From a virus: a stretch of 25,831 nt of DNA. The notes beneath the pieces were generated by a model. That model was not told the DNA's origin, made no database searches, and saw only the letters and a program-made list of their open reading frames with translations. Shown piece after piece: positions 1,265-25,831 of the stretch. Where the stretch lies: the IMG/VR virus record IMGVR_UViG_3300043470_001313, positions 1 to 25,831 of that record. One strand, written 5' to 3'. Both the position numbers and the translations under genes were made by a program. Numbering within the stretch: the first letter of the stretch is position 1; each line of letters starts with the position of its first letter.

Positions 1265-1723
1265 ATGGCAGATGGAAAAACATATGGTATTAATTTCCCT
1301 TTTAGGGATTCTTATGATGGAAAGTATTTAGACCTTTCTACAGATAGTGCTGAAGAAACAAGAACGGATTTAATACATTTATTATTGACTAGAAAAGGAA
1401 GTAGATATTTTTTACCTGATTTTGGAACAAGATTGTATGAATTTATTTTTGAACCATTAGACGGTCCAACCTTTTCAGATATTGATGCAGAAATTAGAGA
1501 TGCGGTTGAAGAATATATACCGGGAATAACAATAAAAAATATAAGTATTACTGCAGCATCAGATGGTGAGGAGGATAAAGGTACTTATATTGACCAATAC
1601 GATACTCGTGTATATAGAGTACCGGGTATTGGAACTAAAGAACATACTGCAAAGGTAAAAATAGATTATCAAATAAATAATGACGTGTTTAACGCTAGTG
1701 ATTTTGTAATCCTAAATATTTAA
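1265..1723 (+). CDS. Baseplate wedge / sheath-initiator protein, gp25-like (GPW/gp25 family)
   Basis: 152 residues. Members of the GPW/gp25 family sit at the top of the baseplate wedge and form the platform from which the contractile sheath polymerises. The typical pattern is visible: RTDLIHLLLTRKGSR (residues 33-47), then the PDFGTRLYEFIFEPLD segment (51-66), an acidic helix, and a beta region around ITIKNISI (88-95). T4 gp25 is 132 residues; the extra length lies in an acidic insertion near 97-125. The Glu-Pro-Arg triad common in this family appears to be Ile-Pro-Gly at residues 85-87. The gene opens the rightward cluster and is followed after 6 bases by the gp6-like gene, the same functional pair that meets in the T4 wedge core. 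The start is AT-rich with no Shine-Dalgarno motif. Confidence 0.9.
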   Translation: MADGKTYGINFPFRDSYDGKYLDLSTDSAEETRTDLIHLLLTRKGSRYFLPDFGTRLYEFIFEPLDGPTFSDIDAEIRDAVEEYIPGITIKNISITAASDGEEDKGTYIDQYDTRVYRVPGIGTKEHTAKVKIDYQINNDVFNASDFVILNI

Positions 1724-1729
1724 AAGAAT

Positions 1730-3568
1730 ATGGCAAATAAAAAAATATCGTATACTACGAGAGATTTCCAATCAATTAGAACAGAGTTAGTAAATTTTAC
1801 TAGAACTTATTATCCGGATTTAGTTGACAACTTTAATGATGCAAGTGTATTCTCTGTATTATTAGACTTAAACGCTGCGGTTACTGATAACCTTCAATTT
1901 AATATAGATAGAAGTATTCAGGAAACAGTATTACAATATGCTCAACAAAGGTCATCAGTTTTTAATATAGCCAAGACTTATGGATTAAAAGTTCCGGGTC
2001 AAAGACCTTCAGTTGCTTTAGTTGATTTCTCAATAACAGTTCCTGCTTTTGGTGATAAAGAAGATTTAAGATATTGTGGTATACTACGTAGAGGTTCTCA
2101 AGTAAATGGTGCCGGTCAAGTATTTGAAACGGTTTATGATATTGATTTTTCATCACCTTCAAATGCTGAAGGATTTCCAAATAGATTAAAAATACCGAAT
2201 TTTGATTCTAATAATAAATTACTGAATTATACTATAACTAAAAGAGAAACTGTTGTTAATGGAATTACCAAAGTTTTTAAAAGAGTTATTACAGCAAATG
2301 ATGTAAGACCATTCTTTGAATTATTTTTACCTGAAAAGACTGTTTTAGGAGTTACAAGTGTTTTATTGAAAGATGGGACACAATATGCTAATGTTCCTTC
2401 AAATCAAGAATTTTTAGGTGTTGATAATCGATGGTTAGAAGTTCAAGCGTTGGCTCAAGATAGAGTTTTTATTGAAGACCCAACAAAAGTTTCGGATAAT
2501 CCGGGTATAAAAGTTGGTAGATATGTTGCCACAGCAACTAAATTTATTACTGAATTTACACCTGAAGGTTTCTTTAAAATGACGTTTGGTGGTGGTACAC
2601 AATCGGCAGATGAACAATTAAGAGAATTTGCTAGAGATGGTAAACCATTAAATTTATACAAATATTCTAATAACTTTGCTTTAGGTAGTACTTTAAAACC
2701 TAACTCAACTCTATTTGTCCAATATAGAATTGGTGGTGGAACAGGAAGTAATTTAGGTGTTGGAGTTATAACTCAAATAGGTACTGTTTCATTCTTTGTG
2801 AATGGTCCATCTGAATCTGTAAACACAACTGTTGTTAATTCATTAAGATGTAACAATGTGACCGCAGCGATTGGTGGGGCTAATTACCCGACAACCGAAG
2901 AAGTAAGAAATTTAGTATCATATAACTTTACAGCACAAAACAGAGCGGTTACCGTAAATGATTATGAATCAATTATTAGAACAATGCCATCACAATTTGG
3001 TGCGCCGGCTAAAGTGGCAATAACTGAAGAAAACAATAAGATTAAAGTTCAAATGTTATCATATGATGAAACCGGTAGATTAACCGAAATAGTTTCAAAT
3101 ACTTTAAAAAATAATGTTGCGAATTATTTATCAAATTATCGTATGATTAATGATTATGTGTCAATTGAAAGTGCTAATGTTATTGATTTAGCAATCAATG
3201 TAGATGTGGTATTAGATAACTCACAAAATCAAGGTTCTATAATTTCTCAAGTAATTAATATAATAACTGACTATTTTGACCCAACAAACCAAGAAATGGG
3301 TGAGAATGTTAATGTTTCTGAATTAAGACGATTAGTTCAAAGTGAAAATGGTATAATTTCAGTTTCTGATATGACATTCTTTAATAAAGTTGGTGGACAA
3401 TATTCATCTTCTCAAACATCACAAAGATATATTGACTCTGAAACCAAACAAATTGAATTAGTCGATGATACAATTTTTGCTGAACCAAGACAAGTGTATC
3501 AGATTAGATATCCAAACAAAGATATCAATGTTAGAGTTAAGAATATTAAAACAGTTAATTTCTCTTAG
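1730..3568 (+). CDS. Baseplate wedge protein, gp6-like (baseplate J family)
   Basis: 612 residues, close to T4 gp6 (660). In T4, two gp6 copies per wedge form the ring that holds the baseplate together and rearranges on contraction. The N-terminus shows the family opening (YTTRDFQSIRTELVNF, then a DNFNDASVFSVLLDLNA segment at about 33-51), followed by helices carrying NLQFNIDRSIQETVL. The baseplate-J signature NRAVTVNDYESIIRTMP lies at about residues 404-420 and leads into the C-terminal beta domains. Length and order match the family and no frameshift is seen. The position directly after the gp25-like gene supports the call. The TAG stop is followed by a 71-base gap, the longest in the cluster. 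Confidence 0.9.
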   Translation: MANKKISYTTRDFQSIRTELVNFTRTYYPDLVDNFNDASVFSVLLDLNAAVTDNLQFNIDRSIQETVLQYAQQRSSVFNIAKTYGLKVPGQRPSVALVDFSITVPAFGDKEDLRYCGILRRGSQVNGAGQVFETVYDIDFSSPSNAEGFPNRLKIPNFDSNNKLLNYTITKRETVVNGITKVFKRVITANDVRPFFELFLPEKTVLGVTSVLLKDGTQYANVPSNQEFLGVDNRWLEVQALAQDRVFIEDPTKVSDNPGIKVGRYVATATKFITEFTPEGFFKMTFGGGTQSADEQLREFARDGKPLNLYKYSNNFALGSTLKPNSTLFVQYRIGGGTGSNLGVGVITQIGTVSFFVNGPSESVNTTVVNSLRCNNVTAAIGGANYPTTEEVRNLVSYNFTAQNRAVTVNDYESIIRTMPSQFGAPAKVAITEENNKIKVQMLSYDETGRLTEIVSNTLKNNVANYLSNYRMINDYVSIESANVIDLAINVDVVLDNSQNQGSIISQVINIITDYFDPTNQEMGENVNVSELRRLVQSENGIISVSDMTFFNKVGGQYSSSQTSQRYIDSETKQIELVDDTIFAEPRQVYQIRYPNKDINVRVKNIKTVNFS

Positions 3569-3639: not shown

Positions 3640-6600
3640 ATGTCCAATTCATTTAGAATACGTACCGAGCCTGGTGTTGATAAATCACTTAACGTCTTGA
3701 TAGACCAAGAATTTGAGTATTTAGAAATATTATCTCTAAAATTATTACCAAGTCAAATATATACTAGACAATGCTCAGATTATGGGGTTATTGTTGGTAG
3801 AGTAAGTGTAAACAATGGTTTTGGTATTCCAAATGCTAAAGTATCCGTATTTATTCCTTTAGATACAAATGATGAACTTAATCCTGTTGTTTCAGACTTA
3901 TACCCATACAAAACATTAACAGATTTAAATGAAGATGGTTATAGATATAATCTATTACCATATGTTAAATCCCATTCCGGACATAATCCAACAGGAACTT
4001 TTTTTACAAGAGACAATGTTTTAACTGACCCTACTTTAATACAGGTATATGACAAGTATTACAAATATTCTACAGTAACAAATTCTAGTGGTGACTATAT
4101 GATTTTTGGTGTACCTGCCGGAAGTCAAACAATTGTGGTTGATATTGACTTATCAGACATTGGTGAATTTTCGTTGTCACCTCAAGATTTGATAAGAATG
4201 GGTCTTGCAACACCAACTCAAGTTGCGGGTATAAATTTTAAAGCCTCATCAAATTTAAATTCTTTACCTCAAATTATTACTATTAATAGAACTATTGAAG
4301 TTGAGCCGTTATGGGGTCAACCTGAAATATGTAATTTGGGTATAACAAGAACTGATTTTGATTTATCTAAAGAATCCGGTATTGATATTAGACCAACATC
4401 AATTTTTATGGGGTCTATTGTATCAAGTAATGATGATGACGCTCTTCCAAGAAATTGTAAACCGAGACTTAAATCCGGTTCACAATGTACTTTAGTTGCA
4501 GGTCCGGGAGAAATATTAGCGATAAGACAAACTATCTTTTTAGATGCTCAGGGTAAACCAATTTTAGAGACAGTTGATTTAGAAGAAGGTGGTCAAGTTA
4601 TTGATGATAATGGTGCGTGGTTAGTTGATGTCCCAATGAATTTAGATTATTTAATAACTAATGAGTTTGGTGAACAAGTTATATCTGATGACCCTAAAAA
4701 AGGAATTCCAACTAAAGGTAAATATCGTTTTAAAGTTAAATGGAATCAATCTCCGTCGTTATCTGAATCAGTTAAACGAGGATATTTTTTAGTACCAAAT
4801 GTTAAAGAACATGGGTGGACTAATAGTGGTTCAAACCCAAATTCAATTAAAAAACATAAGTCATATGCGTTTAGTTTAGATTGGGATGATTATGTTGATT
4901 TTCAATCAGCGATTGATTGTACGGATACTTTTTATTTAATGCAATATAATAAAGTTTATACTGTATCACAATTGGTTGACCAATTTAGAAAAGGATATTT
5001 AAATAGTCAATTTATTGGTATTAAAAATATTTTAGACGAATCTTGTGAAAGTGAAAATAATAAATTCCCAACAAATGATGGTGTTTTTAGGTTTGATTTA
5101 ATTTATTTTTTATTTTGGATAATGTTATTTTTATTCAGACCGGTTTTTATATCATTAATACCTGTTATCCATATCCTTTGGTTTGTTCTTAAAATTTTGG
5201 CGGCAATAATGTCGGGTATAATTTTTCTAGTAGTAGCCGTTGTTGCAGTAATCTGTGGTATTTTAAGGTCGGTTTTAGGAGGTTTAGCTAATTTACCTCG
5301 TTGGTTAGGGGGTAGGTTTTTTAGAAGATTAAGAGATAAACTTGATTGTCCAACAATCGACGACGCTAGGCGTATTGCAGCTCAAATTCTTGAATTTCCT
5401 GATAAGTTAAAAAATATTAAAATACCAAATTTGTCTTATCCGGAGTGTTCTTTTTGTGATTGCGGAGATAATGGTGGATTACCAAAAGACGAACCTGGTA
5501 TTGCACAATTAGAAGTTCAAACCCCACCACCTGGAGAGGTTCCTGAAGCTCCTGGTACGTCATTATTAACACCATTTCAAATTTCTTCACAATATGTGAT
5601 TAATAGATTATTTAATGGAACATTAGGTTCACCAAATGTTAATACTGCGGATTCTGTTTATCAAACATTATTTGCGGGTGATGGTTTGGGGAATGCTAAT
5701 GCTGCATCATTTACTCCATCAACAAGAGTTCCTGGTTTATTTACTACAACAAATAATGATGAAATACCAACCACAACAACAAATCCTACAGACCCTGAAT
5801 TTGGGTATTTTACGTCAAGTTTAAGTGTATCAGAAAGATTAAACTTATTTAATACAAAGGCAAAATATTTTAATGAAAGTGGTAATAATCCTGGTGGTGG
5901 AGTTAATAGAATTAAAGTAACATTCCAACCGGATTTGAATAATTCAACAACTAATTTTCATTATGATAATGTAATTGCTATTGTTTGTACCCCAAGTGCG
6001 GCTAATTTAGAAGCGGGTGTTATGTTATCTTTCCAAGATTTTGTACAATCAAAAGATTTAAATGTTATTAATACAGGGACTACTTTAAATGACTATGGTA
6101 CTAACACGATAACAGGTACAACAATAAATAGTGGGTCAACAACTAACCCCGGAACAATAACAATTAACTATGCGAATCCAGATGGTTCAGGTAATATGGC
6201 TACACCGGTAACTTATCAAATTGTTACTTTTTCAGGTGACCCTCGATATGCTAGATTCCCTATGGATGTTGAGTATTTCCAAGTCATTACAGGTATGACC
6301 TATTCTGAATATAGTGGAATGTGTAATAGTAGTTCTATTTCTGTTACAGGGGATTGGAATAATAATAATTCATTTAATAATAGGTTTTTAAGTAACGATA
6401 TGAGATTTTATCGTATAACACAACCTCAAGAAGATGAATATTTTCCTGTACCTATTAATTGTGGTAAAAATTTATCTTGGTCAACAATAAATAGATTATT
6501 TTCACCTATAGACTATTATAAATCAATTGATAAACAAAAAGTAATATTTTTAGTTAGAGGGGTTGACCCAAATTCATCTAGAACTAAAGTTCAATATGAT

Positions 6601-9600
6601 TTAAGTAGATTATTTGGTTATAACTTCGATAATCCGTCAACAATAGTGACAGGTGATAAATATAAGTTAAATTATCCAATTCAGGGTACTTTAAATTGTG
6701 AAAACCACATAAGTGATGGTGGTGTTGGTGTTAACAATCTAAATGTAAATTATTATTATGATTCATTTCGTTTTGAACCTTCTTTAACAGCACCCGCACC
6801 TCCACCACCTCCTGGAGGTAACCCAACTTCAACATTTGGTTTTAGTTCGTTTACATCTAATTTACAATCATATTATTCTAATTTAGATACTACAAATGGT
6901 AGTTTTACTCCCGGACAAAGTGCTCCATCATTGTCATCGGTAACTTTACCATTATCTACAATATCTAAAGTTGTTGATACTTATACAAATACTGCTCCAC
7001 CACCATCACCGGTATCGGATATTTATTTCTATCAAGGTTCTAGTGCGTCTCAAAGTGTACCAATATCCCCATTAATTACTGATAATTTAATCTCAAATCA
7101 AGATACGGGCACTCAAACTATAATAACTACTTCAAATTTTAGTATCAGTGACGGTAATACTACTATAGTTCAATTTATTACTCCGGCAACACCATTTGAT
7201 GATTTAATAATATCTTCAGGAAATTGGGTAAATTATTTATATGCTCAAGAAATAGCAGGGTCAGGAATACTTAAATATTGGATTGATATCGATGAAATGC
7301 AGTCAGATGGAACTACTGTAATTGCGAATATTGCGACGGGAAATTCATTTTATTTCAACGAGAGTCAAAATTCAGATGTATCAGGATATAAAGTTTTATC
7401 TCAGACACCTACATCCGTATCGACTCAAACAGTGACAACAAATTTAACAAGTAACCAACAAAATGTTTTGGTTTCCGATTATATAACACCACAATTAGGA
7501 TTTTCGGTTATTCCGAGTGGTGTACAAACATTTAAGTTACATTATCTAAAACAAGCATCGAGTGATGATATTAAGGCTTATGTTGAAATTCAATTAGCCG
7601 ATTCAACGGGAACACCAATAGGGCCAACAATAACATCTAATGTTGCTTCAATTGGGTGGGTTAGTGCGGCGGTACCTGTTGTGGTTAATCTTAATATTAC
7701 TTTACCAACAACAACAATTAACCCAACAAATAGAATGATTGTTAGATTATATTTGAATAATGATGAATCATTCCCAAAATCAGTTGTATATTATACTGAA
7801 GGTAATTCATATTATTCACTTGTTGTTACATCGTTAGGTACAACAATTACAAGTACTCTTACGGATTATATGTATAGTATATCTCTACCCACATATGTGT
7901 TAAGTTCAGTTAATTCAAGAATTAGAATTAGTGTTAGGGCGTTAACAACCGGTATAAATAACTCTTTTTCGATTAGAATGGGAGGTTCAGCTCCGTCAAG
8001 AATAGAGATACCATTACCTCCAATTGAAATTGGAACACAAGGTTGGAATGGGTTTATTGCTGAGTGGGATGTGCCGTATTTATACCGTATTAACTGTTCT
8101 CTTGGTTTTCCTAAATTTTATAGTAGATACGCGGGGTCATATAATTTAACTCCGAATGACAATAGAGGGTATTATCCTGGTGAGATTGTTGAGGGGGGTT
8201 CTATGATGTATCAGCGATTGGATATTAATCAAACAACCGGTGCCGGTGACACTTCAATTTTACTTGAAGGTGTTTATTACGCTCCAAGATATTCAAGTGG
8301 ATTAACCTTAAATTATCAGTTAACAACTAGTAACCAAAAAAAGATAGTAATGAGGTCAGATAGATTACCAACATCAACATTTGTTCAGGATAATTTGGGG
8401 AATAGTTTTCCACTACATACTAACACCAATTTTTCAATTTTTGTGGTAACTGATGATGGGGCTACGATTAACCAAAGTGTTGATGGTACAGGTTCAAGTG
8501 ATTTATTTAATGGTGAAGGTGGTGCCTTTGTCCCTGAACCTCTTGTAGAACCGGCAGTTGTTAATCAAATTTTAGAGTCATTTAATTGTGGAAGCATGGC
8601 ACCATTAGGTTGTTATGACAGTAGAGAACCTTCTCCTGGTAAATATAATTTAATAATAGAACCTAAAAGTGATGATTGTTGGAGTTTTGGTGGTGGTAAA
8701 GTTAAATTTGATGGAGGGTGTTATATATTAATTACTCAACCAGTTTTTTCATTATTAGATGGTAGTGATTTTAGAATTGTGTTTGAATGGACAAATAGAA
8801 TTCAAGTTATGTTTGGGGCATGTAGAAATGTATTTTCCCATTTATTTACAAACAATTGGATTAATGGAGTTCTTTATCCTTTTTCATTCTCTAATGATGT
8901 TATTTTTAATAGTTTAAATCAACCGGTAAGTAGACTTTGTAATGATAATATATATTTTGACCAAGTTACTAATAATTTTTATTATAGAAGTAGCCCTTGG
9001 AATGATAGTACTTCTGAATTTGTTGGTATGGATAGACCTAGTCCTGGCGCAACTATAGAACTTCTATTTGGTGGTTATGGTGGTAATTTTAAAAATTTAA
9101 AATATCCTACAACTATCATGGATTTAGGGCCAAGAAATTTATATATACAAGAATTGGTTATGTCTGACGATTTTGATGGGTATGTTGCTAATCGATTAAA
9201 TACTACAACTTATGGTGATGTGTCTGAATTATTAAATCTTTTAATTATTACAAGATTAGCTAGCCCTACTTTTTTAACACAAATTGCAGGTGTTGGTATT
9301 CTAACATTTTTCACTAGAACTAAACTTATGGTTGATGGTGATTATGCTCAAATGATAGCAATTAATTCTGAATTATCTGTTGCTCCGTTTCAATCAATAA
9401 ATTATCCTGACAGACCTCCTGGAGAGCAAAACCCTATATACTATAATCCGTCAGGTAATATTAACGATATTGTATTTGGTGTTTTCTTTTCTTCTGATAC
9501 TCAAACACGAGATTTTATATCACCAAAAAGAACAATTATTGACCCTGATGGACTTGTAGACCAACCGTGTACTTTTAGTTATTTTTCTGTGTTTACTCAA

Positions 9601-9984
9601 GAAGTTCCATTTTACCAATGGAACATAAAAGGTCAAGATACAAACAGTATTTTTGGGTCTCAAGAAAATGAGTGGTATTCTAACCCGATAAATGGGTCGG
9701 CATTTTTTAGTTATCCATATCAATTATTAGATAGAACAAATTCTTCATCAAGATATATGAGAACATCACAAAGACCTGAAAATAAATATTTTAAAGGTTA
9801 TATTTATTCTGTTTATCCTGATGGGACTTTAAATCCGGAGTTTAATTCAATTTTTCCAAATTCAGATAACGATAGGTTGTTTAATACCGGTGCACCGTTT
9901 TATTTTTATTTTGGATTAAAAAAAGGTAAATCGGCTTTTGATAGATTCACAATTAAATGGTTAGATACAACAACAACATTATAA
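3640..9984 (+). CDS. Giant tail/baseplate structural protein (2114 aa) with carboxypeptidase-regulatory-like domain and hydrophobic block
   Basis: 2114 residues, placed where T4 has gp7 (1032 residues), so a wedge-associated structural role is inferred from context. About residues 50-170 resemble a carboxypeptidase-regulatory-like beta-sandwich: GVIVGRVSVNNGFGIPNAKV at the start and NSSGDYMIFGVPAGSQTIVV at the end. Residues 485-547 form a long, strongly hydrophobic block that could make two or three membrane segments, followed by a basic patch (GGRFFRRLRDK) and a cysteine cluster CSFCDC (603-608). Proline-rich linkers occur near 628-640, after 1049 (APPPPPGG) and near 1120. Two related beta-domain copies follow, centred on FITP (about 1179) and YITP (about 1282). 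The C-terminal ~500 residues are aromatic-rich and look compact. There is no signal peptide. The next gene starts one base after the stop. The exact role is not recognised; it may be a fused wedge and fibre-attachment protein. Confidence 0.7.
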   Translation: MSNSFRIRTEPGVDKSLNVLIDQEFEYLEILSLKLLPSQIYTRQCSDYGVIVGRVSVNNGFGIPNAKVSVFIPLDTNDELNPVVSDLYPYKTLTDLNEDGYRYNLLPYVKSHSGHNPTGTFFTRDNVLTDPTLIQVYDKYYKYSTVTNSSGDYMIFGVPAGSQTIVVDIDLSDIGEFSLSPQDLIRMGLATPTQVAGINFKASSNLNSLPQIITINRTIEVEPLWGQPEICNLGITRTDFDLSKESGIDIRPTSIFMGSIVSSNDDDALPRNCKPRLKSGSQCTLVAGPGEILAIRQTIFLDAQGKPILETVDLEEGGQVIDDNGAWLVDVPMNLDYLITNEFGEQVISDDPKKGIPTKGKYRFKVKWNQSPSLSESVKRGYFLVPNVKEHGWTNSGSNPNSIKKHKSYAFSLDWDDYVDFQSAIDCTDTFYLMQYNKVYTVSQLVDQFRKGYLNSQFIGIKNILDESCESENNKFPTNDGVFRFDLIYFLFWIMLFLFRPVFISLIPVIHILWFVLKILAAIMSGIIFLVVAVVAVICGILRSVLGGLANLPRWLGGRFFRRLRDKLDCPTIDDARRIAAQILEFPDKLKNIKIPNLSYPECSFCDCGDNGGLPKDEPGIAQLEVQTPPPGEVPEAPGTSLLTPFQISSQYVINRLFNGTLGSPNVNTADSVYQTLFAGDGLGNANAASFTPSTRVPGLFTTTNNDEIPTTTTNPTDPEFGYFTSSLSVSERLNLFNTKAKYFNESGNNPGGGVNRIKVTFQPDLNNSTTNFHYDNVIAIVCTPSAANLEAGVMLSFQDFVQSKDLNVINTGTTLNDYGTNTITGTTINSGSTTNPGTITINYANPDGSGNMATPVTYQIVTFSGDPRYARFPMDVEYFQVITGMTYSEYSGMCNSSSISVTGDWNNNNSFNNRFLSNDMRFYRITQPQEDEYFPVPINCGKNLSWSTINRLFSPIDYYKSIDKQKVIFLVRGVDPNSSRTKVQYDLSRLFGYNFDNPSTIVTGDKYKLNYPIQGTLNCENHISDGGVGVNNLNVNYYYDSFRFEPSLTAPAPPPPPGGNPTSTFGFSSFTSNLQSYYSNLDTTNGSFTPGQSAPSLSSVTLPLSTISKVVDTYTNTAPPPSPVSDIYFYQGSSASQSVPISPLITDNLISNQDTGTQTIITTSNFSISDGNTTIVQFITPATPFDDLIISSGNWVNYLYAQEIAGSGILKYWIDIDEMQSDGTTVIANIATGNSFYFNESQNSDVSGYKVLSQTPTSVSTQTVTTNLTSNQQNVLVSDYITPQLGFSVIPSGVQTFKLHYLKQASSDDIKAYVEIQLADSTGTPIGPTITSNVASIGWVSAAVPVVVNLNITLPTTTINPTNRMIVRLYLNNDESFPKSVVYYTEGNSYYSLVVTSLGTTITSTLTDYMYSISLPTYVLSSVNSRIRISVRALTTGINNSFSIRMGGSAPSRIEIPLPPIEIGTQGWNGFIAEWDVPYLYRINCSLGFPKFYSRYAGSYNLTPNDNRGYYPGEIVEGGSMMYQRLDINQTTGAGDTSILLEGVYYAPRYSSGLTLNYQLTTSNQKKIVMRSDRLPTSTFVQDNLGNSFPLHTNTNFSIFVVTDDGATINQSVDGTGSSDLFNGEGGAFVPEPLVEPAVVNQILESFNCGSMAPLGCYDSREPSPGKYNLIIEPKSDDCWSFGGGKVKFDGGCYILITQPVFSLLDGSDFRIVFEWTNRIQVMFGACRNVFSHLFTNNWINGVLYPFSFSNDVIFNSLNQPVSRLCNDNIYFDQVTNNFYYRSSPWNDSTSEFVGMDRPSPGATIELLFGGYGGNFKNLKYPTTIMDLGPRNLYIQELVMSDDFDGYVANRLNTTTYGDVSELLNLLIITRLASPTFLTQIAGVGILTFFTRTKLMVDGDYAQMIAINSELSVAPFQSINYPDRPPGEQNPIYYNPSGNINDIVFGVFFSSDTQTRDFISPKRTIIDPDGLVDQPCTFSYFSVFTQEVPFYQWNIKGQDTNSIFGSQENEWYSNPINGSAFFSYPYQLLDRTNSSSRYMRTSQRPENKYFKGYIYSVYPDGTLNPEFNSIFPNSDNDRLFNTGAPFYFYFGLKKGKSAFDRFTIKWLDTTTTL

Positions 9985-13876: not shown

Positions 13877-14791
13877 ATGGCAACAGGAACATACGGTACA
13901 ATAAGACCCGCAGATGTATCACCGGAAGATGTGGACATCATTCTTAATTATACACCATCAAGAGATGAAACAGATAATTTTGTATTAACAAAGTTAGATG
14001 CTGTATCAATATTAAGACCTTATTTTAATAATCAACAAACGAGCTCAAGCCCAAACCCTAATGTGGAAATATTAGGTGGATTATACAATTTAAGACTACC
14101 TGCTGAACAATTTAATCAATTAGGTATCTACACCTTATATATTAGACCAGCGGAGATTAGAACGAGTATTTTAGATTGTGGTGTGTTATCATCATTACCT
14201 AACGTAAAAGGAATTGTAATTGATTTGAACGATGTACCATCTCAATTTAGAAATAAATTCGTTAATCAAGGTTTAGTTGGTTTTAGAATTGAGTATTTAA
14301 ATTCTGATGGAACAAAAATACCTAATTTCTTTAGAATTGTTACATCATCATTCTTTTGTGAACCGGTTGTTCAAAATTTGACAAATACATCACAAAAAGC
14401 TATAAGATATAGATATACTGATAATAATACAAATATAATCTTTTGTACGGTTTCTCCGTCGTCATCTCCGACAAACAAACCAAACGCAACACCATATATT
14501 GGACAGCCAAATCAAAATATTATAATGTCTAATACCTTCTTTAATCCTATTACTCTTGATATTGAAATTGCTGACCAAGATTTCTCAACATTGGCTATTG
14601 CACTTTATGGTAATCAAACTAAATCTATGGATGACGGTATTTACACAATCTACGATGCAAATAATAACATTTACCAACAATATAACTTATACGAAATTAG
14701 AGACCAATTTAATACGTTGTTATATGAAGTTAGACAAAATAGAGGGGATAATATTGATTTTAGTAAAAACTTTACAAACATAACTGAATAA
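13877..14791 (+). CDS. Uncharacterised tail/baseplate protein (304 aa)
   Basis: 304 residues, no family recognised. It begins MATGTYGTIRPADVSPEDVD and has mixed alpha/beta character with repeated Asn and Ile. A segment near residues 100-125 (LSSLPNVKGIVIDLNDVP) looks like a folded core. The C-terminal ~80 residues (from PITLDIEIADQDF) end in a Tyr/Gln-rich helix, YLYEIRDQFN-like, suggesting a packing interface. No signal peptide, membrane segment or catalytic motif is seen. It follows the PKD-like protein after 9 bases and runs into the next gene through a TAATG overlap, so it probably belongs to the same virion substructure. Confidence 0.55.
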   Translation: MATGTYGTIRPADVSPEDVDIILNYTPSRDETDNFVLTKLDAVSILRPYFNNQQTSSSPNPNVEILGGLYNLRLPAEQFNQLGIYTLYIRPAEIRTSILDCGVLSSLPNVKGIVIDLNDVPSQFRNKFVNQGLVGFRIEYLNSDGTKIPNFFRIVTSSFFCEPVVQNLTNTSQKAIRYRYTDNNTNIIFCTVSPSSSPTNKPNATPYIGQPNQNIIMSNTFFNPITLDIEIADQDFSTLAIALYGNQTKSMDDGIYTIYDANNNIYQQYNLYEIRDQFNTLLYEVRQNRGDNIDFSKNFTNITE

Positions 14792-17700
14792 TGGCATTAC
14801 AAAAATTTACATGTCCTCCACAAGGTCCATCTGGTGCAAGTTCATTCTCTGATGATTTAGTTGGTTTCCAATTAGTCACAGGGGGTGGTTTGATGCAAGG
14901 TAATTTTGAATTTGCGACTTCTTTTAATGAGAAAACGAATAGAACTTTTAATACAGGAACATTTTCAGACCCAATTAGTTTAGAAGGATTAGGGTTAGAT
15001 AGTAATATTCAATCAAGAACAATATTTGAAAATAACTTTAAAGTTTATCCAAATTTTGATTTAAGTCAAATTACTAATTTTACTCAATACGGGTCTTTAG
15101 TGAAAAGATTATCAACATCTGTTGAGGTAATTATATCTAAATTCCCCGCGGCTCTTGAGGCGACTACTATGGGTGAAAATTATGTTAAAGGTGAAACCGC
15201 AACAAATATAACTTATGATGAAATTGTTAATATAACTAGTTTTGATTTAGATGTTTCTCGTTTAAGAAATCCATTTGCTATTGATTTTACAATAAATTCA
15301 ACTAGAAATCTTGCGTTAAAAGAAATTGAGGTATCTGCGCTTAGAGACATGACGGTTCAATACGCTAATTATAGTTTATATTATAATGGTAATGGTTATA
15401 ATGTAACCGCAATTATTCCTACAACATCTTTAACATCCGGAACATTAAACATAAGTGTTAGTGGCCATCCATTTCCATTTCAAACTGTTACTTTTGATGA
15501 TTTAGTTATTAGACCAAATGATTATGAAGTTAATCGAATTTTTAATGAAGATTTAGATGAAGTTGAAAATTTCTTACTAAATAGAAATGTGACCCCAAAA
15601 TATACTGCAAATTTTAATGTACCAAGAGATGCTGAAGACGGTAGTTATTTCACTTCACAAGAGTTCGTAACATTCCCATTAAATGGTTCTTGGAATCTTG
15701 ATATAGTAACAAATGCTTTCACAAATTATTTAGTTCAGTTAAATGATATTGGAGCATCAATGGATGAGTATAAAACAAACATTATTGCAAGATTTTTAAC
15801 TACCGGGGCATTCCAAGAATTTGACACATTAGGTCAAAAAATGGAAAAAGTATTACAAATTTACGGTAGAAGTTTTGATGAGACAAATAAATTTATAAGT
15901 GCTTTGGCATTTATGAATTCAGTACATTATAATCCTGGTGATGATATACCATCTCAATTACTTAAAAATTTATCACAAACATTAGGATGGCAAACAAATA
16001 TGTCACCAGTGTCAACTGATGATTTTTTAAGTTCTGTGTTTGGTCAAACAAATACAGACAGGTCTCAATATCCTGGTATATCAGATGCTACAACACCTGA
16101 TGAATTAAATTATCAATACTATAGAAATTTAATATTAAATTCTGCTTACCTGTTCAAATCAAAAGGAACAAGAAAATCAATTGAAACTTTAATGGCGTTA
16201 ATTGGTGCTCCGGATGCTTTGATTGAATTTAATGAGTACATTTACTTAGCCGACCAAAGAATTAATGTTAATCAATTTAATAGTGAGTTTGCTCAAATAT
16301 CAGGTGGTACGTATACTCAAGAATTACCAACACTTGAGGCGGGTAACACATATAAAATTAGAAATATTGAATACACTGGTTTTACAACTACCACAGTAAT
16401 TCAAGATGTTAATATAACCAAAGATGAATATCCAATGGATGTATTTGGTTTCCCTAAAGCTCCGCCAAATACAGAAGATTTTTTCTTTGAAAAAGGTAGT
16501 GGATGGTTTGAACAAACACCAAAACATAGAGCCCCTGAAGAAGTAAGTTTTACCAATAGTGTATTTACAGGTGCAAATCCTAACTATCAAACGGTTTTAA
16601 CGCCATATAGTTATGGTCAAGAATATTTTGATAGATTTAGACAATTCCCTTTTATGAATTTAGGGTATAATCTATCACAAACCATTGATAATAATAAAAG
16701 TTGGGTTGATACTGAAGTTGGGTTACGTTCAAATTTAGATGGTGGTTATAATGCAAGATACTATACAACAAATGACGATTTAGTTCTTAACGCCAAAAAT
16801 ACTGATTTATTTTTAAATCCTGCTCAAGGTTTATCATATGATGTGTGGGTGATGTCAAGGGAGTATAATTTTCCAATACCTAATGAAGGTTTAAATTATG
16901 TTCAACCAACTTATTGTGACCCAAATCCTGTTTCTAATTATCCAATGAGAGGTGGGGTGGATTGGACTGAAATAAATCCACAACCAAAACGTAAAACATT
17001 CTTTGAGTTTGCCCAAACATTTTGGAAAAACATGATTAATGTTAGAAACAGACAATTTTCAACAGATGGTAAGACAATGGGATATCCAACCCTTCAATCA
17101 ATTTATTGGAAATATTTAGACGCTCAGAAATTAGCTGGAGTACCGGATGGTAGTTTCAACTATAGTAATATGATTGAGTATGTAGATGGTATGGGTGATT
17201 ATTGGGTACGACTTGTGGAACAAATGATACCAGCAAGTACTATTTGGAATACAGGTGTTAAATATGAGAATTCAATCTTCCATAGACAAAAATTTGTTTG
17301 GAGAAGACAAGAAGGATGTCAGTTAATTCCTGTACCATGTAATCCATGTTCGATGGTTAGTAATCTATTTACTTATGATTGTTATGTACAATCAGTACAA
17401 TGTTCAATCTATCCATGGCAAACTAATCCACAATTACAATCATTTAATGCTGTGTTAGGTTATTTATTAAATAATTATTTAACATCTCAACAACCTCCTT
17501 ATGAGTTAAATGATTGTCAGCTGAATACTTTAAAAAGTACTTGGTATGTGGTGTTAAGTTTAGATGATGTCGTAATTGTTCAATATCAGTTCTTTACAGG
17601 TATAGGATATCTTAACACTGGTTTAGATTCACCAACAACAGCCCAATGGGATGCGGCGTTAATACCTGCATTAAATAGTTTAGATTTGTATGGTTTTGAG

Positions 17701-17814
17701 TATATTTTAAATGATACCGATGTAGTTATTTATAGTTCAATTTGTTCTGTAAATGATTCGGGAATCAATTTTAAATTGAATGTTGGAATAAATTTTGAAA
17801 TTTTATGTAATTAA
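14791..17814 (+). CDS. Large baseplate protein resembling phage tail protein I (1007 aa)
   Basis: 1007 residues. A central segment, NLILNSAYLFKSKGTRKSIE (from about residue 448), then LMALIGAP and FNEYIY, matches the helical motif seen in phage tail protein I and related baseplate proteins, where an SKGTR-type loop precedes a short helix and a hydrophobic strand. In P2-like phages protein I is part of the wedge and contacts the J protein, so pairing with the gp6-like protein here makes sense. The late segment GDYWVRLVEQMIPASTIWNT (about 805-824) followed by FHRQKFVWRR is another expected element. The last ~150 residues begin with a cysteine cluster (CQLIPVPCNPC) and may be a separate domain. 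Much longer than classical protein I (about 200 residues). It starts and ends with TAATG overlaps. Confidence 0.7.
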   Translation: MALQKFTCPPQGPSGASSFSDDLVGFQLVTGGGLMQGNFEFATSFNEKTNRTFNTGTFSDPISLEGLGLDSNIQSRTIFENNFKVYPNFDLSQITNFTQYGSLVKRLSTSVEVIISKFPAALEATTMGENYVKGETATNITYDEIVNITSFDLDVSRLRNPFAIDFTINSTRNLALKEIEVSALRDMTVQYANYSLYYNGNGYNVTAIIPTTSLTSGTLNISVSGHPFPFQTVTFDDLVIRPNDYEVNRIFNEDLDEVENFLLNRNVTPKYTANFNVPRDAEDGSYFTSQEFVTFPLNGSWNLDIVTNAFTNYLVQLNDIGASMDEYKTNIIARFLTTGAFQEFDTLGQKMEKVLQIYGRSFDETNKFISALAFMNSVHYNPGDDIPSQLLKNLSQTLGWQTNMSPVSTDDFLSSVFGQTNTDRSQYPGISDATTPDELNYQYYRNLILNSAYLFKSKGTRKSIETLMALIGAPDALIEFNEYIYLADQRINVNQFNSEFAQISGGTYTQELPTLEAGNTYKIRNIEYTGFTTTTVIQDVNITKDEYPMDVFGFPKAPPNTEDFFFEKGSGWFEQTPKHRAPEEVSFTNSVFTGANPNYQTVLTPYSYGQEYFDRFRQFPFMNLGYNLSQTIDNNKSWVDTEVGLRSNLDGGYNARYYTTNDDLVLNAKNTDLFLNPAQGLSYDVWVMSREYNFPIPNEGLNYVQPTYCDPNPVSNYPMRGGVDWTEINPQPKRKTFFEFAQTFWKNMINVRNRQFSTDGKTMGYPTLQSIYWKYLDAQKLAGVPDGSFNYSNMIEYVDGMGDYWVRLVEQMIPASTIWNTGVKYENSIFHRQKFVWRRQEGCQLIPVPCNPCSMVSNLFTYDCYVQSVQCSIYPWQTNPQLQSFNAVLGYLLNNYLTSQQPPYELNDCQLNTLKSTWYVVLSLDDVVIVQYQFFTGIGYLNTGLDSPTTAQWDAALIPALNSLDLYGFEYILNDTDVVIYSSICSVNDSGINFKLNVGINFEILCN

Positions 17815-20783
17815 TGGCTTGTAGTTTATCATATGTATTAGCGAGTTTATCGGGAGATTGTACTAACTCTAATTTAGGTGGGTTTAGTATTGATATAACA
17901 GGAACCGCACCGGATTATAGTATTCAGTGGGTTAACCCCCCATTAGGAACTATTGTTTTAGGTGCCGGAGTAACCGGTTATACCGCTACCACATTATCTT
18001 CAGGAACATATTCATTTAACATTCTTGATTCTTGTTTACCAACAATGACATCATTACCTGTGAATATTAATATATCTAGTGGTACTTGTGCTAGTATTGT
18101 GGGGATAGCAAATACGACGTGTAATGAAAATAATGGGTCGATAACAGGACAAACATCTAATTTTTATGGTTTAGGGACTTTTAATTTATACAATACCTTA
18201 ACCGGTTTTGTAAGTTCGGGATTATCAATTAGTAATAGTTATATTTTTAATGATTTATCTCCGGGAATTTATTACGTTACTGCTAATGATGGAGGTGGAT
18301 GTAGTGGACAAAGTGAAACCACAATAATTCAACCATCAACTAATATAAATTGGGGGTTTTATACTGTAATGGATTCCGGTTGTGCGAATGTTGATTCAGG
18401 TAAAATATATGTTACAGGATTAACAGGGACATCACCATTTACTTATTTATGGTCTAATGGTGAAACGGACGATTTTATAACAGGATTGACTGCAGGTAGT
18501 TATTCTGTACTTATAACTGATAGTTTGGGTTGTACATTATCTCAAACTGCGACAGTAACTGAAGTTGACCCATTAGGGTTTGGTTCATTTACCACAGTAC
18601 CTCCAACATGTTTTAATAATAATGGTGAAGTAACTCTTGTGATTACAGGAGGTACTGGTCCATACTATTATTCGGCATCAACTGGAGTGGTTAACTTATC
18701 GTTTAGTACCATTCAAACATTTTATAATATTGGTGGAGGTCCTTTTTCAGTTCAAGTTACAGATGCTGCTTTATGTAAAATAACACCAACTACAACAATT
18801 ATTCCACCAAACGGGTTTAATATTGTAAGTGTAACAACAACTAATTCAAATTGTGGTGGTAGTGATGGTAAAATAAATATTGAGATAAGTGGTGGTGCAG
18901 TTCCTTTTACTTACACTTTAACGGATTCTTTAGGTAATAGTATTATTCAACCTACTGAATTTAGAAGTTGGGTTTTTACTAATTTAGCGTCTGGGACTTA
19001 TACTTTAACTATTTCAGATAATGGGGGTTGTACTTATGTTAGTTCGCCTATTTCTATAAATAATACTCCTTTATTTACGTTTACTGTAGATACTACAGGT
19101 ACAACATGTAATTTAAATAATGGTTATGTTACAATTACAATATCAGGTGGTACACCACCTTATACCTATAATATTGGAAGTGAATCCTTCCAATCACTAT
19201 TAAGTGCATATACTTTTAATAATTTATATTCGGGGGCATATTCTTTAACTCTTACTGAATCAACTCCCGGTGTTATTTGTCGACAAACTTCTAATTTTGA
19301 TATTGCAACATCAAATGATGTTGATTTTTTAATATCAGGAACTGACGCTAATAATGGTAATGATGGAACTGTTTCCGCTTATATAACAAATGGTACACCA
19401 CCTTTCACATTATTATGGAGTAATAACGTAAATGGTCAAACAGGTTATTATTTAAGTAATTTAAGTGCGGGAACATATAGTTTACAAGTAACCGATAATA
19501 ATGGATGTGTTAAAACTCGAAGGGTAACTATAGACGGATTTGATTTAATAGCGTCATTTCAAACATTTAATATTTGTGATAGCGAATTTGAGAATATTGG
19601 GGAATTAGTTAAAAAAGGTCCGAAAGAAATGTTAAATGAAGGTTATTATGATTTAACATCCGGGTATACTAATTGTTTACTTAATCAGGCAATTTTTAAT
19701 ATTGTTGCGACTATTGGGAATGTTACAAAAACTTCAGAATTTTATATAAGTTATGCCTTAAATGATTTTCCAACTGATGAAGAATATTTTAACGCTTTAG
19801 TTGCTTTATTAGAAAGTTTTGACCAAGTTGCTCAAGTTAATATTGACCCATTAAATAATGGGATTCAAATCATTGCAAAATGTGAAGAACAATATTTGGT
19901 TGCGACGGATGTTACTGTTGATATGTTTATTGAATATAATATCTCATGTCAATATTGTGGTTTAACACCTACTCCGACACCAACGCCAACATTAACGCCA
20001 ACCCCAACATTAACAACAACACTTACACCAACACCTACGCCAACATCAACATCTGGAGCAACACCAACTAACACACCAACTCAAACACCGACTAATACTC
20101 AAACACCGACTAAAACACCAACTCCAACACCTACATCTAGTTCACCATCATTATGGTATTTGTATTCACCGTGTATAGGTACAACACGTATATTACAACC
20201 TGTATTAGTATTACCTGGTTTATTAATTGGGGACTCATTTAGTACTACTAACACATCAGGTAAACAAGAATGTTGGCAATTGAGAGCAATATATCAGGGA
20301 TTACCAAATCCATTACCGCCTAATACCACAACATATAACACTAATTATTTTACGACAATTAGTAACACTATTTATTCTTCAGAGGGTGATAAAGTTGATT
20401 CTTGTGAAAAATGTGAGAGTGATATTAATATTGAACCAACAAGAAATTTTCTTGTTAGTGTTATTAAAGATGATGTACAAATCACAGAAATTCAACCAGT
20501 ATCATTCTATCAATATGATAATCAATATAATTTCCCTGTGGCGGCATTAACCCCTATGTATGGTACTCAGTATGGTCTTAATAATCAAACAGTGACGGTT
20601 ACAATTTATTCAAATGATATTACACCTGTTTGTGTTTCATTAGTTGAGAATGGTAATATCATTGCTTCACTAACAGGGTCATTCTTGGCAGGAGGAGAAT
20701 TTATAAATGTAGTATTTCTTGGTGTGACAGTCGCATCAACATCAACATTAGAAATTATTGTAAATTCAGGTAGTTGTCAATAA
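17814..20783 (+). CDS. SprB-repeat adhesin-like tail fibre protein with Thr-Pro linker (989 aa)
   Basis: 989 residues in four parts. Residues 16 to about 575 hold seven SprB-type repeats of 76-87 residues; conserved positions start at about 16, 103, 190, 266, 347, 432 and 513. Each has a C-x-x-x-x-G opening, often an SGGTPPYTY-like strand, and a closing LSAGTYSLQVTDNNGC-like strand. Residues ~576-716 form a mixed domain with a charged ENIGELVKKGPKEML start. Residues 717-779 are a Thr-Pro linker. Residues ~780-989 form a C-terminal domain with several Cys (WYLYSPC, CEKCES). SprB is the mobile surface adhesin of gliding Flavobacterium; these repeats are common in Bacteroidota surface proteins. 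There is no signal peptide, as expected for a virion protein. Probably a host-binding fibre. It is the last gene before the convergent terminator. Confidence 0.8.
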   Translation: MACSLSYVLASLSGDCTNSNLGGFSIDITGTAPDYSIQWVNPPLGTIVLGAGVTGYTATTLSSGTYSFNILDSCLPTMTSLPVNINISSGTCASIVGIANTTCNENNGSITGQTSNFYGLGTFNLYNTLTGFVSSGLSISNSYIFNDLSPGIYYVTANDGGGCSGQSETTIIQPSTNINWGFYTVMDSGCANVDSGKIYVTGLTGTSPFTYLWSNGETDDFITGLTAGSYSVLITDSLGCTLSQTATVTEVDPLGFGSFTTVPPTCFNNNGEVTLVITGGTGPYYYSASTGVVNLSFSTIQTFYNIGGGPFSVQVTDAALCKITPTTTIIPPNGFNIVSVTTTNSNCGGSDGKINIEISGGAVPFTYTLTDSLGNSIIQPTEFRSWVFTNLASGTYTLTISDNGGCTYVSSPISINNTPLFTFTVDTTGTTCNLNNGYVTITISGGTPPYTYNIGSESFQSLLSAYTFNNLYSGAYSLTLTESTPGVICRQTSNFDIATSNDVDFLISGTDANNGNDGTVSAYITNGTPPFTLLWSNNVNGQTGYYLSNLSAGTYSLQVTDNNGCVKTRRVTIDGFDLIASFQTFNICDSEFENIGELVKKGPKEMLNEGYYDLTSGYTNCLLNQAIFNIVATIGNVTKTSEFYISYALNDFPTDEEYFNALVALLESFDQVAQVNIDPLNNGIQIIAKCEEQYLVATDVTVDMFIEYNISCQYCGLTPTPTPTPTLTPTPTLTTTLTPTPTPTSTSGATPTNTPTQTPTNTQTPTKTPTPTPTSSSPSLWYLYSPCIGTTRILQPVLVLPGLLIGDSFSTTNTSGKQECWQLRAIYQGLPNPLPPNTTTYNTNYFTTISNTIYSSEGDKVDSCEKCESDINIEPTRNFLVSVIKDDVQITEIQPVSFYQYDNQYNFPVAALTPMYGTQYGLNNQTVTVTIYSNDITPVCVSLVENGNIIASLTGSFLAGGEFINVVFLGVTVASTSTLEIIVNSGSCQ
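17859..19535 (+). repeat. Seven tandem SprB-type protein repeats
   Basis: Protein-level repeats of 76-87 residues inside the 989-residue gene. Most DNA copies have diverged, but TGGTACACCACCTT is identical at 19148-19161 and 19391-19404, in copies six and seven. Each unit probably folds as one immunoglobulin-like beta sandwich, giving an elongated rod. Confidence 0.8.
19962..20150 (+). repeat. Thr-Pro linker repeat with 18-bp tandem duplication
   Basis: Encodes about 63 residues dominated by Thr-Pro pairs, a flexible, extended spacer between the middle domain and the C-terminal domain of the adhesin. Within it, 20079-20096 and 20097-20114 are direct 18-bp tandem copies differing at one base, encoding TQTPTN then TQTPTK. 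Unit lengths are multiples of three, so gain or loss of copies would keep the frame. Confidence 0.85.
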
Positions 20784-20817: not shown

Positions 20818-21417
20818 TTACCATATTTTTTCTTGTTTCATATGACCGATAACGCAACAGTAAGCATCTGTTTGGTCAAAGTTTTCTTTTTTAAGAGTAT
20901 TGTTTCTTGTGTATAACCAAGTGATTTGAGGTTCTTTTTTTGCAATTAGGTCCCATATAATCATTTTCTTGTCAATGTCTTTAGGAAGACCTCCAAATAA
21001 CACGTATTTACCTTTATCATTTAATTGTGTCAATTCCGGAAAGGCAAACTTACGAGAATTGTATGTTGATATGAAATCGGGTACAACACCTAATACATCA
21101 TATATTTCTTTAGTAACTAAAGTATTGAACCTTAATAAAGTTTGAACTGTATAAACATTGTTTGAGTTTAATAAAGGTTCTTCAATAATAACTTTAGTAA
21201 TACCCATGTCTTTATATTCTAAAAGTTTAGTTCTAAAGATTTGACCTTTTAGAAGTAATTCTTTTATTTTATTTTCTTCTTTTGGTTTTGGTATTGGTGA
21301 GATATGAGTTAATTCAAGTAGTTCTCGACTTTGTATATCAAATAATGCCCAACCAATTGTTTTGGTGCTCACATCTAATCCCAAAACTTTAGGACTTTCT
21401 TTAAGTGTTTTTTTCAT
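20818..21417 (-). CDS. RuvC-like Holliday junction resolvase / RNase H-fold nuclease
   Basis: 199 residues. The N-terminus VLGLDVSTKTIGWALFD (11-27) is the first beta hairpin of RuvC-type nucleases with the catalytic Asp15. VIIEEP (76-81) supplies the second acidic site (Glu79 or Glu80), and the C-terminal FDQTDAYCC (180-188) supplies the last acidic pair, Asp181 and Asp184. Order and spacing fit RuvC-like resolvases (E. coli RuvC is 173 residues), which cut four-way junctions in a metal-dependent way. In a phage this would debranch replicated DNA before packaging, the job done in T4 by the unrelated endonuclease VII (gp49). The start is 6 bases after the stop of the fibre gene, so it is probably the last gene of the leftward operon. 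Another RNase H-fold nuclease specificity cannot be excluded. Confidence 0.82.
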   Translation of the reverse strand: MKKTLKESPKVLGLDVSTKTIGWALFDIQSRELLELTHISPIPKPKEENKIKELLLKGQIFRTKLLEYKDMGITKVIIEEPLLNSNNVYTVQTLLRFNTLVTKEIYDVLGVVPDFISTYNSRKFAFPELTQLNDKGKYVLFGGLPKDIDKKMIIWDLIAKKEPQITWLYTRNNTLKKENFDQTDAYCCVIGHMKQEKIW

Positions 21418-24982: not shown

Positions 24983-25831
24983 TTATGATATTATTACATC
25001 AACAGCTTTAGTTATGTCGATTGTGTCGTAAGATGATTGGTTTGTGAATCTAGGTAATGACGTACCTTTTATTCTTAATTTTCTAACAAATCCAATCCAA
25101 GTTGAATTAGCATAACTTGTTAGTAATTGATTAATATTAGTACTATTGAATCCACTACCAATAATTTCAATTTGTAGTAAACCTGTGAAAATTCTTGAAC
25201 TATCTGAGAATAATGATATTGTGTTATTACCATAAATATATAATGCTTGGGTGTTTAAATTAATTAATGATAAATCACCCGATATTGTGTTATTACCGTA
25301 TATCCCAATTTTTATTGCATTAGAAGGTAAATCTTGAATATTACCGTAAATATTATTATTACCTCTTATAGTTATTGAATCATATGCGTTAGAATTACCT
25401 AAAGTGGCGATATCACCTGTTAATGTATTGTTACCTTCTAATTGAAAAGAGGCGCCAGTTTTTAAATTTATTGTACTAATATTACCACTAATATTAGTAT
25501 TACCTAAAATTTCTATAAATGATAATGTTGAATAGTTTAAGGTGCTGATATCACCATAAAGGGTATTACCTCCCGGAGCGATTCCATGAACTCTAAGACT
25601 TGTTAAATTAGGTGGTAATGTTGATATATCACCTGTTACAGTATTTTTACCTAGTATTCTTATTTCGGTGACAGTATTTGATAATCCTCCTAAATCACCA
25701 GAAACACTATTATTACCAAATAAGTCAATTCGTAATAAATTAGGTGTAGACATCAATGATACATCGTTGGTGATAGTATTTAGACCATCGATAATTATAT
25801 AACGAAGTGATGAAGGGAAATCATATACATT
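24983..25831 (-). CDS. Leucine-rich-repeat-like solenoid protein, 3' part (5' end outside window)
   Basis: The reading frame stays open to the window edge, adding 25 codons upstream of the TTG-ATG at 25756-25751. These extra residues (SSLRYIIIDGLNTITNDV) continue the repeat pattern, so that start is internal and the gene is truncated by the window; 282 residues are visible. About nine repeats of 22-26 residues follow the pattern L-x-x-I-x-I-x-G-N-N-T-I-S-G-D-I-S-T-L-P, for example LRIDLFGNNSVSGDLGGL and IKIGIYGNNTISGDLSLI. This resembles leucine-rich repeats of the N-x-(I/L)-x-G-(D/N)-(I/L) type and should form a curved beta solenoid. The last ~70 residues (from about TGLLQIEIIGSG) depart from the pattern and may be a cap. 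A recognition protein of the fibre apparatus is likely. Confidence 0.75.
   Translation of the reverse strand, partial: NVYDFPSSLRYIIIDGLNTITNDVSLMSTPNLLRIDLFGNNSVSGDLGGLSNTVTEIRILGKNTVTGDISTLPPNLTSLRVHGIAPGGNTLYGDISTLNYSTLSFIEILGNTNISGNISTINLKTGASFQLEGNNTLTGDIATLGNSNAYDSITIRGNNNIYGNIQDLPSNAIKIGIYGNNTISGDLSLINLNTQALYIYGNNTISLFSDSSRIFTGLLQIEIIGSGFNSTNINQLLTSYANSTWIGFVRKLRIKGTSLPRFTNQSSYDTIDITKAVDVIIS
25200..25831 (-). repeat. LRR-like protein repeats (about nine units of 22-26 residues)
   Basis: In-frame repeats coding for GNNTISGD-like loops alternating with hydrophobic strands. On the plus strand the loops show as recurring ATATCACC and GTATTATTACC-like words (for example near 25270-25300, 25410-25435 and 25625-25650). 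The array continues beyond the window end, so its full length is unknown. Confidence 0.8.

Follow-up and report, generated by a model that had tools for sequence, protein, structure and literature searches.

To our knowledge, the transit of DNA across membranes after contraction is poorly understood in the contractile-tailed phages. In phage phi29, the hydrophobic segment of gp9 assembles on genome release into a barrel of helices whose outer surface is hydrophobic (PMC6542822). In the thylakoid contractile injection systems (CIS), baseplates are held by a putative transmembrane helix of the tail-fibre-like protein Cis13, and deletion of that helix left 9 of the 14 observed particles free-floating (PMC8894136). 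The core bundles of the wedge are helical in XM1 (PMC10457771) and conserved in AlgoCIS (PMC8894135), and further background is given in a paper on CisA (PMC12237407), a review of the T4 tail (PMC3004832), and a review of barrier breaching (PMC6116005). In T4, the GenBank record notes for gp7 that its "C-terminus is predicted integral membrane domain," and given this protein, a membrane segment in the wedge region is not wholly new. Here, we describe a much longer hydrophobic block in a viral protein encoded beside baseplate genes, and we tentatively favor, at somewhat less than an even chance, the view that the block belongs to a tail-baseplate-associated protein and inserts into a membrane at entry. 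A search of the literature on membrane segments of wedge proteins, most of it in a form short of full text, found no published account of this family.

The locus and its neighbors

The stretch of DNA analyzed, referred to below as the window, comes from IMG/VR, where it is a virus record 25,831 bases long. The genes that bear most directly on the block are the following:

1265..1723, plus strand: gp25-like baseplate wedge protein, a neighbor (PF04965, E 3.1e-10)
1730..3568, plus strand: gp6 or baseplate J-like wedge protein, a neighbor (PF04865, E 1.5e-8; phrog_219, E 2.4e-24)
3640..9984, plus strand: 2114-aa open reading frame (ORF) of an unannotated family, directly 3' of the gp25-like and gp6-like genes
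14791..17814, plus strand: 1007-aa protein with phmmer matches in three deposited relatives

The order of the gp25-like gene (1265), the gp6-like gene (1730), and the 2114-aa ORF (3640) matches the gp7-type wedge slot beside gp6. The initial annotation had described the product of this ORF as a giant baseplate protein; the size of 2114 aa is correct, and the word baseplate derives from gene order, with neither a family model nor wedge homology behind it. None of the Pfam, PHROGs, or NCBIfam models names the protein, the only matches being a sub-threshold PF13620 and, in one member of the family, Bys1, and no homology to known wedge or structural proteins was found in the libraries searched. 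The 1007-aa protein is the better candidate for a gp7-type partner of gp6, its gp7-like role being putative. In phmmer searches it gave one clear match, to the Microcystis phage Mel-JY01 (E 3.6e-9), and two weak ones, to Flavobacterium phage immuto (E 0.0031) and LR756508 (E 0.0044), and it had no match in the PDB.

Several other genes in the window are of interest in their own right. A 989-aa protein (17814-20783) combines SprB repeats (PF13573, E 2.7e-24) with a long tract rich in Thr and Pro, and may serve in host mimicry or as a fiber. Repeats of the SprB type are characteristic of surface adhesins in Bacteroidota. From these repeats, and from the presence of immuto among the relatives of gp6 (25% identity), we infer a Bacteroidota host. 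On the minus strand, a 199-aa protein (20818-21417) starts with an GLDVSTKTIGWALFD-like motif, which we take to recall RuvC/RNase H fold nucleases, and a further protein (24983-25831), open at the contig end, has short repeats built on GNNTISGDL-like units; neither has a Pfam match at E <= 0.01.

A long hydrophobic block in the 2114-aa protein

Positions 5092-5281 of the window encode residues 485-548 of the ORF at 3640-9984, and the hydrophobic block that had been reported there is real: its sequence is as quoted, and its hydropathy lies far above that of shuffles of the same protein. The features of this region are as follows:

3772..4959, plus strand: residues 45-440, conserved beta-rich N-terminal part, as modeled by AlphaFold2
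5044..5046, plus strand: Cys469, the first of four bracketing Cys (111 of 111 alignment rows; 184 of 185 distinct sequences by pattern)
5098..5289, plus strand: residues 487-550, hydrophobic block, predicted as a single continuous alpha helix
5098..5199, plus strand: residues 487-520, core helix, universal and hydrophobic on five of six sides
5290..5424, plus strand: residues 551-595, return segment, variable and mostly basic, hydrophobic in some relatives and Cys-rich in others
5446..5463, plus strand: residues 603-608, CSFCDC (CxxCxC), the closing half of the four-Cys site (182 of 185)

The analysis used the Kyte-Doolittle hydropathy scale and the Hessa free-energy scale. The block has a 19-residue Kyte-Doolittle maximum of 3.02, compared with at most 1.65 in the 13 other ORFs of the window that were checked. 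The 58-residue maximum is 2.37; in 1000 shuffles of the same protein it averages 0.88 and never exceeds 1.65. Charge within residues 487-548 is confined to R500, K518, and R543, plus H511. The longest run free of D, E, K, and R in the window's block is 24 residues, which is not exceptional, as it falls within the range of an N-terminal control (median, 18; maximum, 33; 111 rows); the median across the family is 40. Both features said to follow the block are present, namely a basic patch at R554-K567 and, at residues 603-608, the CSFCDC cluster, which is conserved in the family as CxxCxC. An artefact or frameshift as the source of the block is rejected, since it is read alike in 187 distinct sequences.

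Soluble wedge proteins had been said not normally to carry such a block, and for blocks of this length the T4 proteins broadly bear that out. No 55-residue stretch scores above 0.93 in 25 proteins of the T4 tail, baseplate, and head. T4 gp7 does have a 19-residue membrane-type segment: the 19-residue maxima of the same 25 proteins are 2.20 for gp29, 2.07 for gp7, 1.71 for gp18, and 1.66 for gp11, with the rest lower.

Hydrophobicity is conserved across the family while sequence is not

Relatives were gathered in five scans of viral contigs, taking the best 80 of each, which gave at least 381 loci, many of them overlapping on the same contigs, or 382 with the window's copy; the family is larger than the loci listed. 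Comparison of the first 700 residues leaves 244 distinct sequences among these 382, of which 187, the window included, reach residue 660 with a recognizable start. The Cys-anchor pattern fits 186 of the 187, with L178 missed (an earlier, stricter pattern matched 136 of 159, the remaining 23 being fragments or pattern variants). Cys were counted in 185 distinct sequences of 700 residues or longer, and the alignment used for column statistics has 111 rows, namely the window and 110 relatives, mutually less than 85% identical. Open frames among the members listed are up to 2605 aa, and a stretch of ~330 residues (~1122-1460; window 7003-8019) is missing from several relatives that are 80-84% identical elsewhere (such as L002, L010, L023, L024, and L025).

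The initial annotation recognized that homologues without hydrophobicity at this position would speak against a membrane role, and this is not what we found. The 19-residue maximum within residues 351-750 is 2.01 or higher in all 187 distinct listed sequences, window included (median, 2.74), and this peak falls within the block in all 186 anchored sequences, while the 55-residue maximum has a lowest value of 1.08 and a median of 2.05 in the 187. The same 19-residue measure over residues 1-463 has a median of 1.05 and a maximum of 1.59 (111 rows). Across the 54 well-filled columns of residues 487-545, mean hydropathy is 2.06 and column entropy 2.45 bits, against -0.37 and 1.05 bits for residues 1-463 (111 rows each). 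The block is thus both more variable and far more hydrophobic than the N-terminal part, which indicates that selection keeps its oiliness and not its letters. A few points are fixed: D486 is found in 107 of 111 rows, H511 in 98, and Pro501 in 64, and position 500 is Gln, Arg, Thr, or Lys in 94.

No relative was found in a phage collection (whole protein at E 1e-5; one divergent N-terminal part at E 1) or among the plasmids searched, and a scan of bacterial genomes with two peptide patterns returned 36 stretches, none of them a relative. Predicted viral structures gave one match, A0A8S5LA66 from the uncultured Myoviridae sp. ctPuP5, which is 40% identical across 441 columns. Within the collections searched, the family is known only from uncultured viral sequences, and with no relative in the phage, plasmid, or bacterial collections, host and function cannot be read from cultured cases.

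Predicted structure and helix geometry

The AlphaFold2 model, a monomer built with the 111 rows, has a mean pLDDT of 73 (an earlier 23-row model with a mean of 51 was set aside). It contains one 64-residue helix at 487-550, with 10-residue pLDDT means of 80-93 over 491-550 and 60 over 481-490, followed by short helices at 558-567, 573-585, and 588-591; confidence is low at 459-483, 601-605, and 609-645. A long hydrophobic helix is therefore what the model returns for the block, and it is drawn as one helix, not as the separate spans that had been proposed. In the relatives, charges, prolines, and the onset of length changes gather near 518-523, which bears on the choice between a continuous helix and a tight hairpin. 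The beta-rich N-terminal part has 10-residue pLDDT means mostly of 78-93, lower at 101-120, 201-210, 261-290, and 321-330. Its residues ~45-249 are possibly transthyretin- or carboxypeptidase-regulatory-like, judging from the model: the match to 2nsm has a Z of 6.9 and an rmsd of 2.0 over 79 aligned residues, a level that the tool's own note gives as usual background, and that to PF13620 (E 8.5e-4) scores 20.1 bits, below the cut-off of 32.3, with 8 of 23 members matching at E <= 0.01. Other searches were uninformative. PDB sequence searches returned only chance-level rows, such as a sperm cation channel subunit at E 0.33, and four such rows for the block alone. Foldseek hits in the PDB to beta-rich proteins (best, teneurin 2, E 8.5e-4) and pore-forming cytolysins had TM-scores too low to retain, and a resemblance of residues 505-596 to an acid-sensing ion channel (Z 5.9) was rejected as common for long helices.

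The mean hydropathy of residues 487-520 is periodic, with a peak at 100 degrees and a moment of 0.96 (shuffled mean, 0.43; reached in none of 2000 column shuffles, which ignore kinship among sequences). Over 487-550 the moment at 100 degrees is 0.84, likewise reached in none of 2000 shuffles, and over 558-591 periodicity is not clear (p 0.053). On a helical wheel, the six sectors have mean hydropathies of 3.37, 3.71, 2.91, 1.98, -1.07, and 1.86, and the polar stripe of the core helix runs through 489/493/497/500/504/511/518. As modeled, this fits an inverse-amphipathic helix, with one polar stripe and five of six sides hydrophobic, the opposite of a soluble coiled coil. Column entropy over 487-520 has no helical periodicity (p 0.70), and conservation along the stripe is no higher than elsewhere in the core helix.

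These data bear on a reading in which the block never meets lipid and is instead a structural helix buried in an oligomeric baseplate or fiber bundle, packing with gp6 or with its own copies. Such a helix would agree with the prediction of one long helix in place of a membrane hairpin, with the lack of helical periodicity in the conservation of 487-520, and with T4 gp7, whose 19-residue stretch (Kyte-Doolittle 2.07 at 886) lies in a chain of solved baseplate entries. The wedge core bundles, helical in XM1 and conserved in AlgoCIS, agree with it as well (PMC10457771, PMC8894135). Against burial, five hydrophobic sides of six over 34-64 residues would seem more than a bundle should need, block length varies widely, and some relatives add hydrophobic segments. 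Buried interfaces also usually conserve shape, but in this family the letters vary freely while hydrophobicity stays. We consider a purely structural role unlikely, if still deserving of serious attention.

The four-Cys site, flanking charges, and length variants

The block is bracketed by four Cys, with Cys469 before it and Cys603, Cys606, and Cys608 after it. In L145, L374, and L379 the third Cys is lost, but the total of four is kept by a new Cys located slightly upstream of the pair. AlphaFold2 models the region of this site with low confidence. We infer that these residues form a metal site or a disulfide pair; the literature search found no iron-sulfur cluster in baseplate wedges. The distance from D486 to the last Cys ranges from 62 residues up to 160-169. 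The shortest relatives (4 of 111; 62-69 residues) retain little beyond the core helix, many rows are close to 86 residues with a Cys-rich second half, and others gain extra hydrophobic segments. In L187, L199, L209, and similar sequences with a block of ~86 residues, the second half is Cys-rich and basic, not hydrophobic, which suggests a second Cys site, as far as can be judged from the sequences. A simple window count gives 1, 2, 3, and 4 segments in 10, 50, 44, and 7 of the 111 rows. We thus dropped the idea of an always even number of spans, which the short forms also contradict; of the original interpretation as two or three membrane spans, the membrane-type character of the segment stands, and the simple count gives 1-4 segments across relatives.

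The flanks differ in charge, the N-flank being net negative in 111 of 111 rows and the C-flank positive in 92, with a near-neutral middle; residues 551-595 have a mean net charge of +2.61 (positive in 92 rows, zero in 7, and negative in 12). This bears on whether the segment might lie in the inner membrane of the producing cell as an anchor at which baseplates assemble, in the manner of membrane-anchored contractile injection systems. Cys are conserved together on either side of the block, as would be expected if it crossed the membrane an even number of times and left the body of the protein in the cytoplasm. The Cis13 helix of the thylakoid CIS offers a parallel, since it holds baseplates in place and its deletion left 9 of 14 observed particles free (PMC8894136). 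An acidic N-flank (111/111) and a basic C-flank (92/111), however, contradict the positive-inside rule for a single crossing with the N-terminus in the cytoplasm, a lytic phage must leave the membrane later, and the shortest relatives (4/111) keep little beyond the core helix. An assembly anchor is, in our view, distinctly unlikely. With an odd number of crossings, the same flanking charges are contrary to an N-in inner-membrane anchor and fit insertion from outside.

Long relatives and deposited phages

A contractile-sheath match is present in all six long relative contigs (109-322 kb), over the cut-off in five, and a terminase match in three, which are the three longest. The open frames with the sheath match (G001-G006) are 1112-1271 aa, about twice the length of T4 gp18 (659 aa). 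In the three longest contigs (272-322 kb; G001, G002, and G003), in which 40, 71, and 37 ORFs were read, respectively, the tail module is collinear. Within the interval from baseplate to sheath, the family homologue alone has two or more windows at or above 1.8 in all three, and the next two proteins by length in that interval, candidate tape measures of 1637-2307 aa, reach at most 1.53; the tape-measure-sized proteins of the long relatives thus have no membrane-type windows. Outside this interval or as single windows, G002 has a 353-aa protein near 95 kb in which two windows peak at 2.22, along with single windows in ORFs of 119 aa (1.92), 886 aa (1.85), 98 aa (2.48), and 1329 aa (2.41), and G001 has a partial ORF with a single window of 1.82. 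A gene of 304-308 aa with an N-terminal hydrophobic window of 2.1-2.2 sits between gp6 and the block gene in G001 (L397:15447-16355) and G003 (G003:C1:124351-125274) and is absent there from the window and G002; the G001 copy, the only one scanned, is alpha/beta-hydrolase-like (PF05990, E 1.4e-4).

Three deposited phages have a related gp6, the isolates immuto and Mel-JY01 and the uncultured LR756508. They share gp25, gp6, and the 1007-aa protein (clear in one, weak in two) with the window. None has a block near gp6, where the 23 plus-strand ORFs of more than 250 aa that start beyond 10 kb in the stretch analyzed reach at most 1.70; elsewhere, immuto has two small ORFs (191 and 182 aa) with single windows of 2.14 and 2.47. 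The 2114-aa protein itself has no credible match in the three: its best E is 0.032 (3.1 bits) as a single sequence, 0.036 (4.3 bits) with an N-terminal profile, and 0.0048 (7.5 bits, to a 493-aa LR756508 frame) with a C-terminal profile built from the window and 60 of 123 distinct relatives. As these phages share the neighbors and lack a match to the 2114-aa protein, this protein is probably a lineage-specific addition, to which wedge status is assigned by position.

Such an addition might not belong to the virion at all and could instead be a late-expressed host-membrane protein that happens to be encoded in a baseplate operon, for instance in superinfection control or envelope remodeling. 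The absence of homology to known structural proteins in the libraries searched and the absence of the gene from the three deposited relatives of its neighbors are in keeping with this. However, the gene lies between baseplate genes in the window and, collinearly, in three long relatives, and its long beta-rich body seems closer to tail or adhesin proteins than to small membrane effectors. We regard a non-virion role as highly improbable.

A possible role in membrane insertion at entry

Several lines of evidence lead us to prefer, tentatively, the insertion of the block into a host membrane at entry. The segment of ~34 residues (487-520, extending to 550 in the window) is universal, and its hydrophobicity is conserved rather than its identity. 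The predicted helix combines 100-degree periodicity with inverse amphipathy. The gene is in the baseplate block of large phages that have a contractile-sheath gene, and its product is the sole protein with multiple membrane-type windows between the baseplate and sheath genes in three long relatives. There are also published precedents in phi29 gp9 (PMC6542822) and thylakoid CIS Cis13 (PMC8894136). Under insertion at entry, the 2114-aa protein would be part of the virion, with the helix shielded until the baseplate opens by packing against itself, its neighbors, or the spike region. After opening, several copies (six, if there is one per wedge) would insert their helices into a host membrane, each polar stripe turned toward its counterparts or toward a lumen. 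Once inserted, the helices could hold the opened baseplate in place, or they could form the lining through which the tube or DNA passes. The base of the helix would be secured to the protein body by the four Cys, acting either as a metal site or through disulfides.

Other observations temper this proposal. The charge asymmetry of the flanks is uninformative for an even number of crossings, relatives have anywhere from 1 to 4 segments by the simple window count, and the charge-free run of the window (24) is ordinary. T4 gp7, a chain of solved baseplate entries, has a membrane-type segment, so a wedge can hold such a helix. The AlphaFold2 helix comes from a monomer, which leaves room for burial in an oligomer, and baseplate status comes from gene order. 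For a helix attached to the wedge, the outer membrane would be easier to reach than the inner membrane, yet few outer-membrane proteins are helical. Outer-membrane helix barrels of the Wza type are a possible lead.

A more specific and rather unlikely form of membrane insertion is a helical pore borne by the baseplate. Across this widespread group of large, uncultured, contractile-tailed phages, several copies would insert on baseplate opening with the polar stripe inward and encircle the tail tube as a ring or channel, hinged at the four-Cys site. The polar stripe lacks extra conservation, contrary to what might be expected of a specific pore lining. If a pore were indeed formed, it would be the baseplate region, and not the tape measure protein, that carries out membrane passage. 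More generally, the part of the baseplate region that probably acts on membranes is marked by one conserved element whose physical signature is clear. Residues 469-608 provide a precise target segment, and the family grades naturally from members with one core helix to members with four segments.

Comparison with known systems

The nearest positional counterpart of the 2114-aa protein is T4 gp7, as both are large proteins encoded right after gp6 and both carry a membrane-type segment (gp7, 19-residue Kyte-Doolittle value of 2.07 at 886). The likeness does not extend to the form of the segment: gp7 has one 19-residue segment near its C-terminus and a 55-residue maximum of 0.44, whereas the 2114-aa protein has 34-64 or more hydrophobic residues in its N-terminal third. 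A family profile searched against PDB chains, T4 gp7 included, left gp7 unmatched at E <= 1, and identification of the protein as gp7 was dropped, given that it has no credible match in the deposited relatives that share gp25 and gp6. The resemblance to carboxypeptidase regulatory or transthyretin-like domains is weak (PF13620; Z 6.9), is confined to residues ~45-249, and is silent on the block. With phi29 gp9 the protein shares a long segment conserved as hydrophobic, here in 187 of 187 distinct listed sequences, although the phi29 tail is short and non-contractile and gp9 is its tail knob. The thylakoid CIS (Cis13 and Cis12) have a putative transmembrane helix in a baseplate-associated protein, and the 2114-aa protein has a membrane-type helix, with its placement at the baseplate taken from gene order. 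Cis13 is a tail-fibre-like trimer with a C-terminal helix that acts in the producing cell, whereas the helix reported here is internal to a 2114-aa phage protein.
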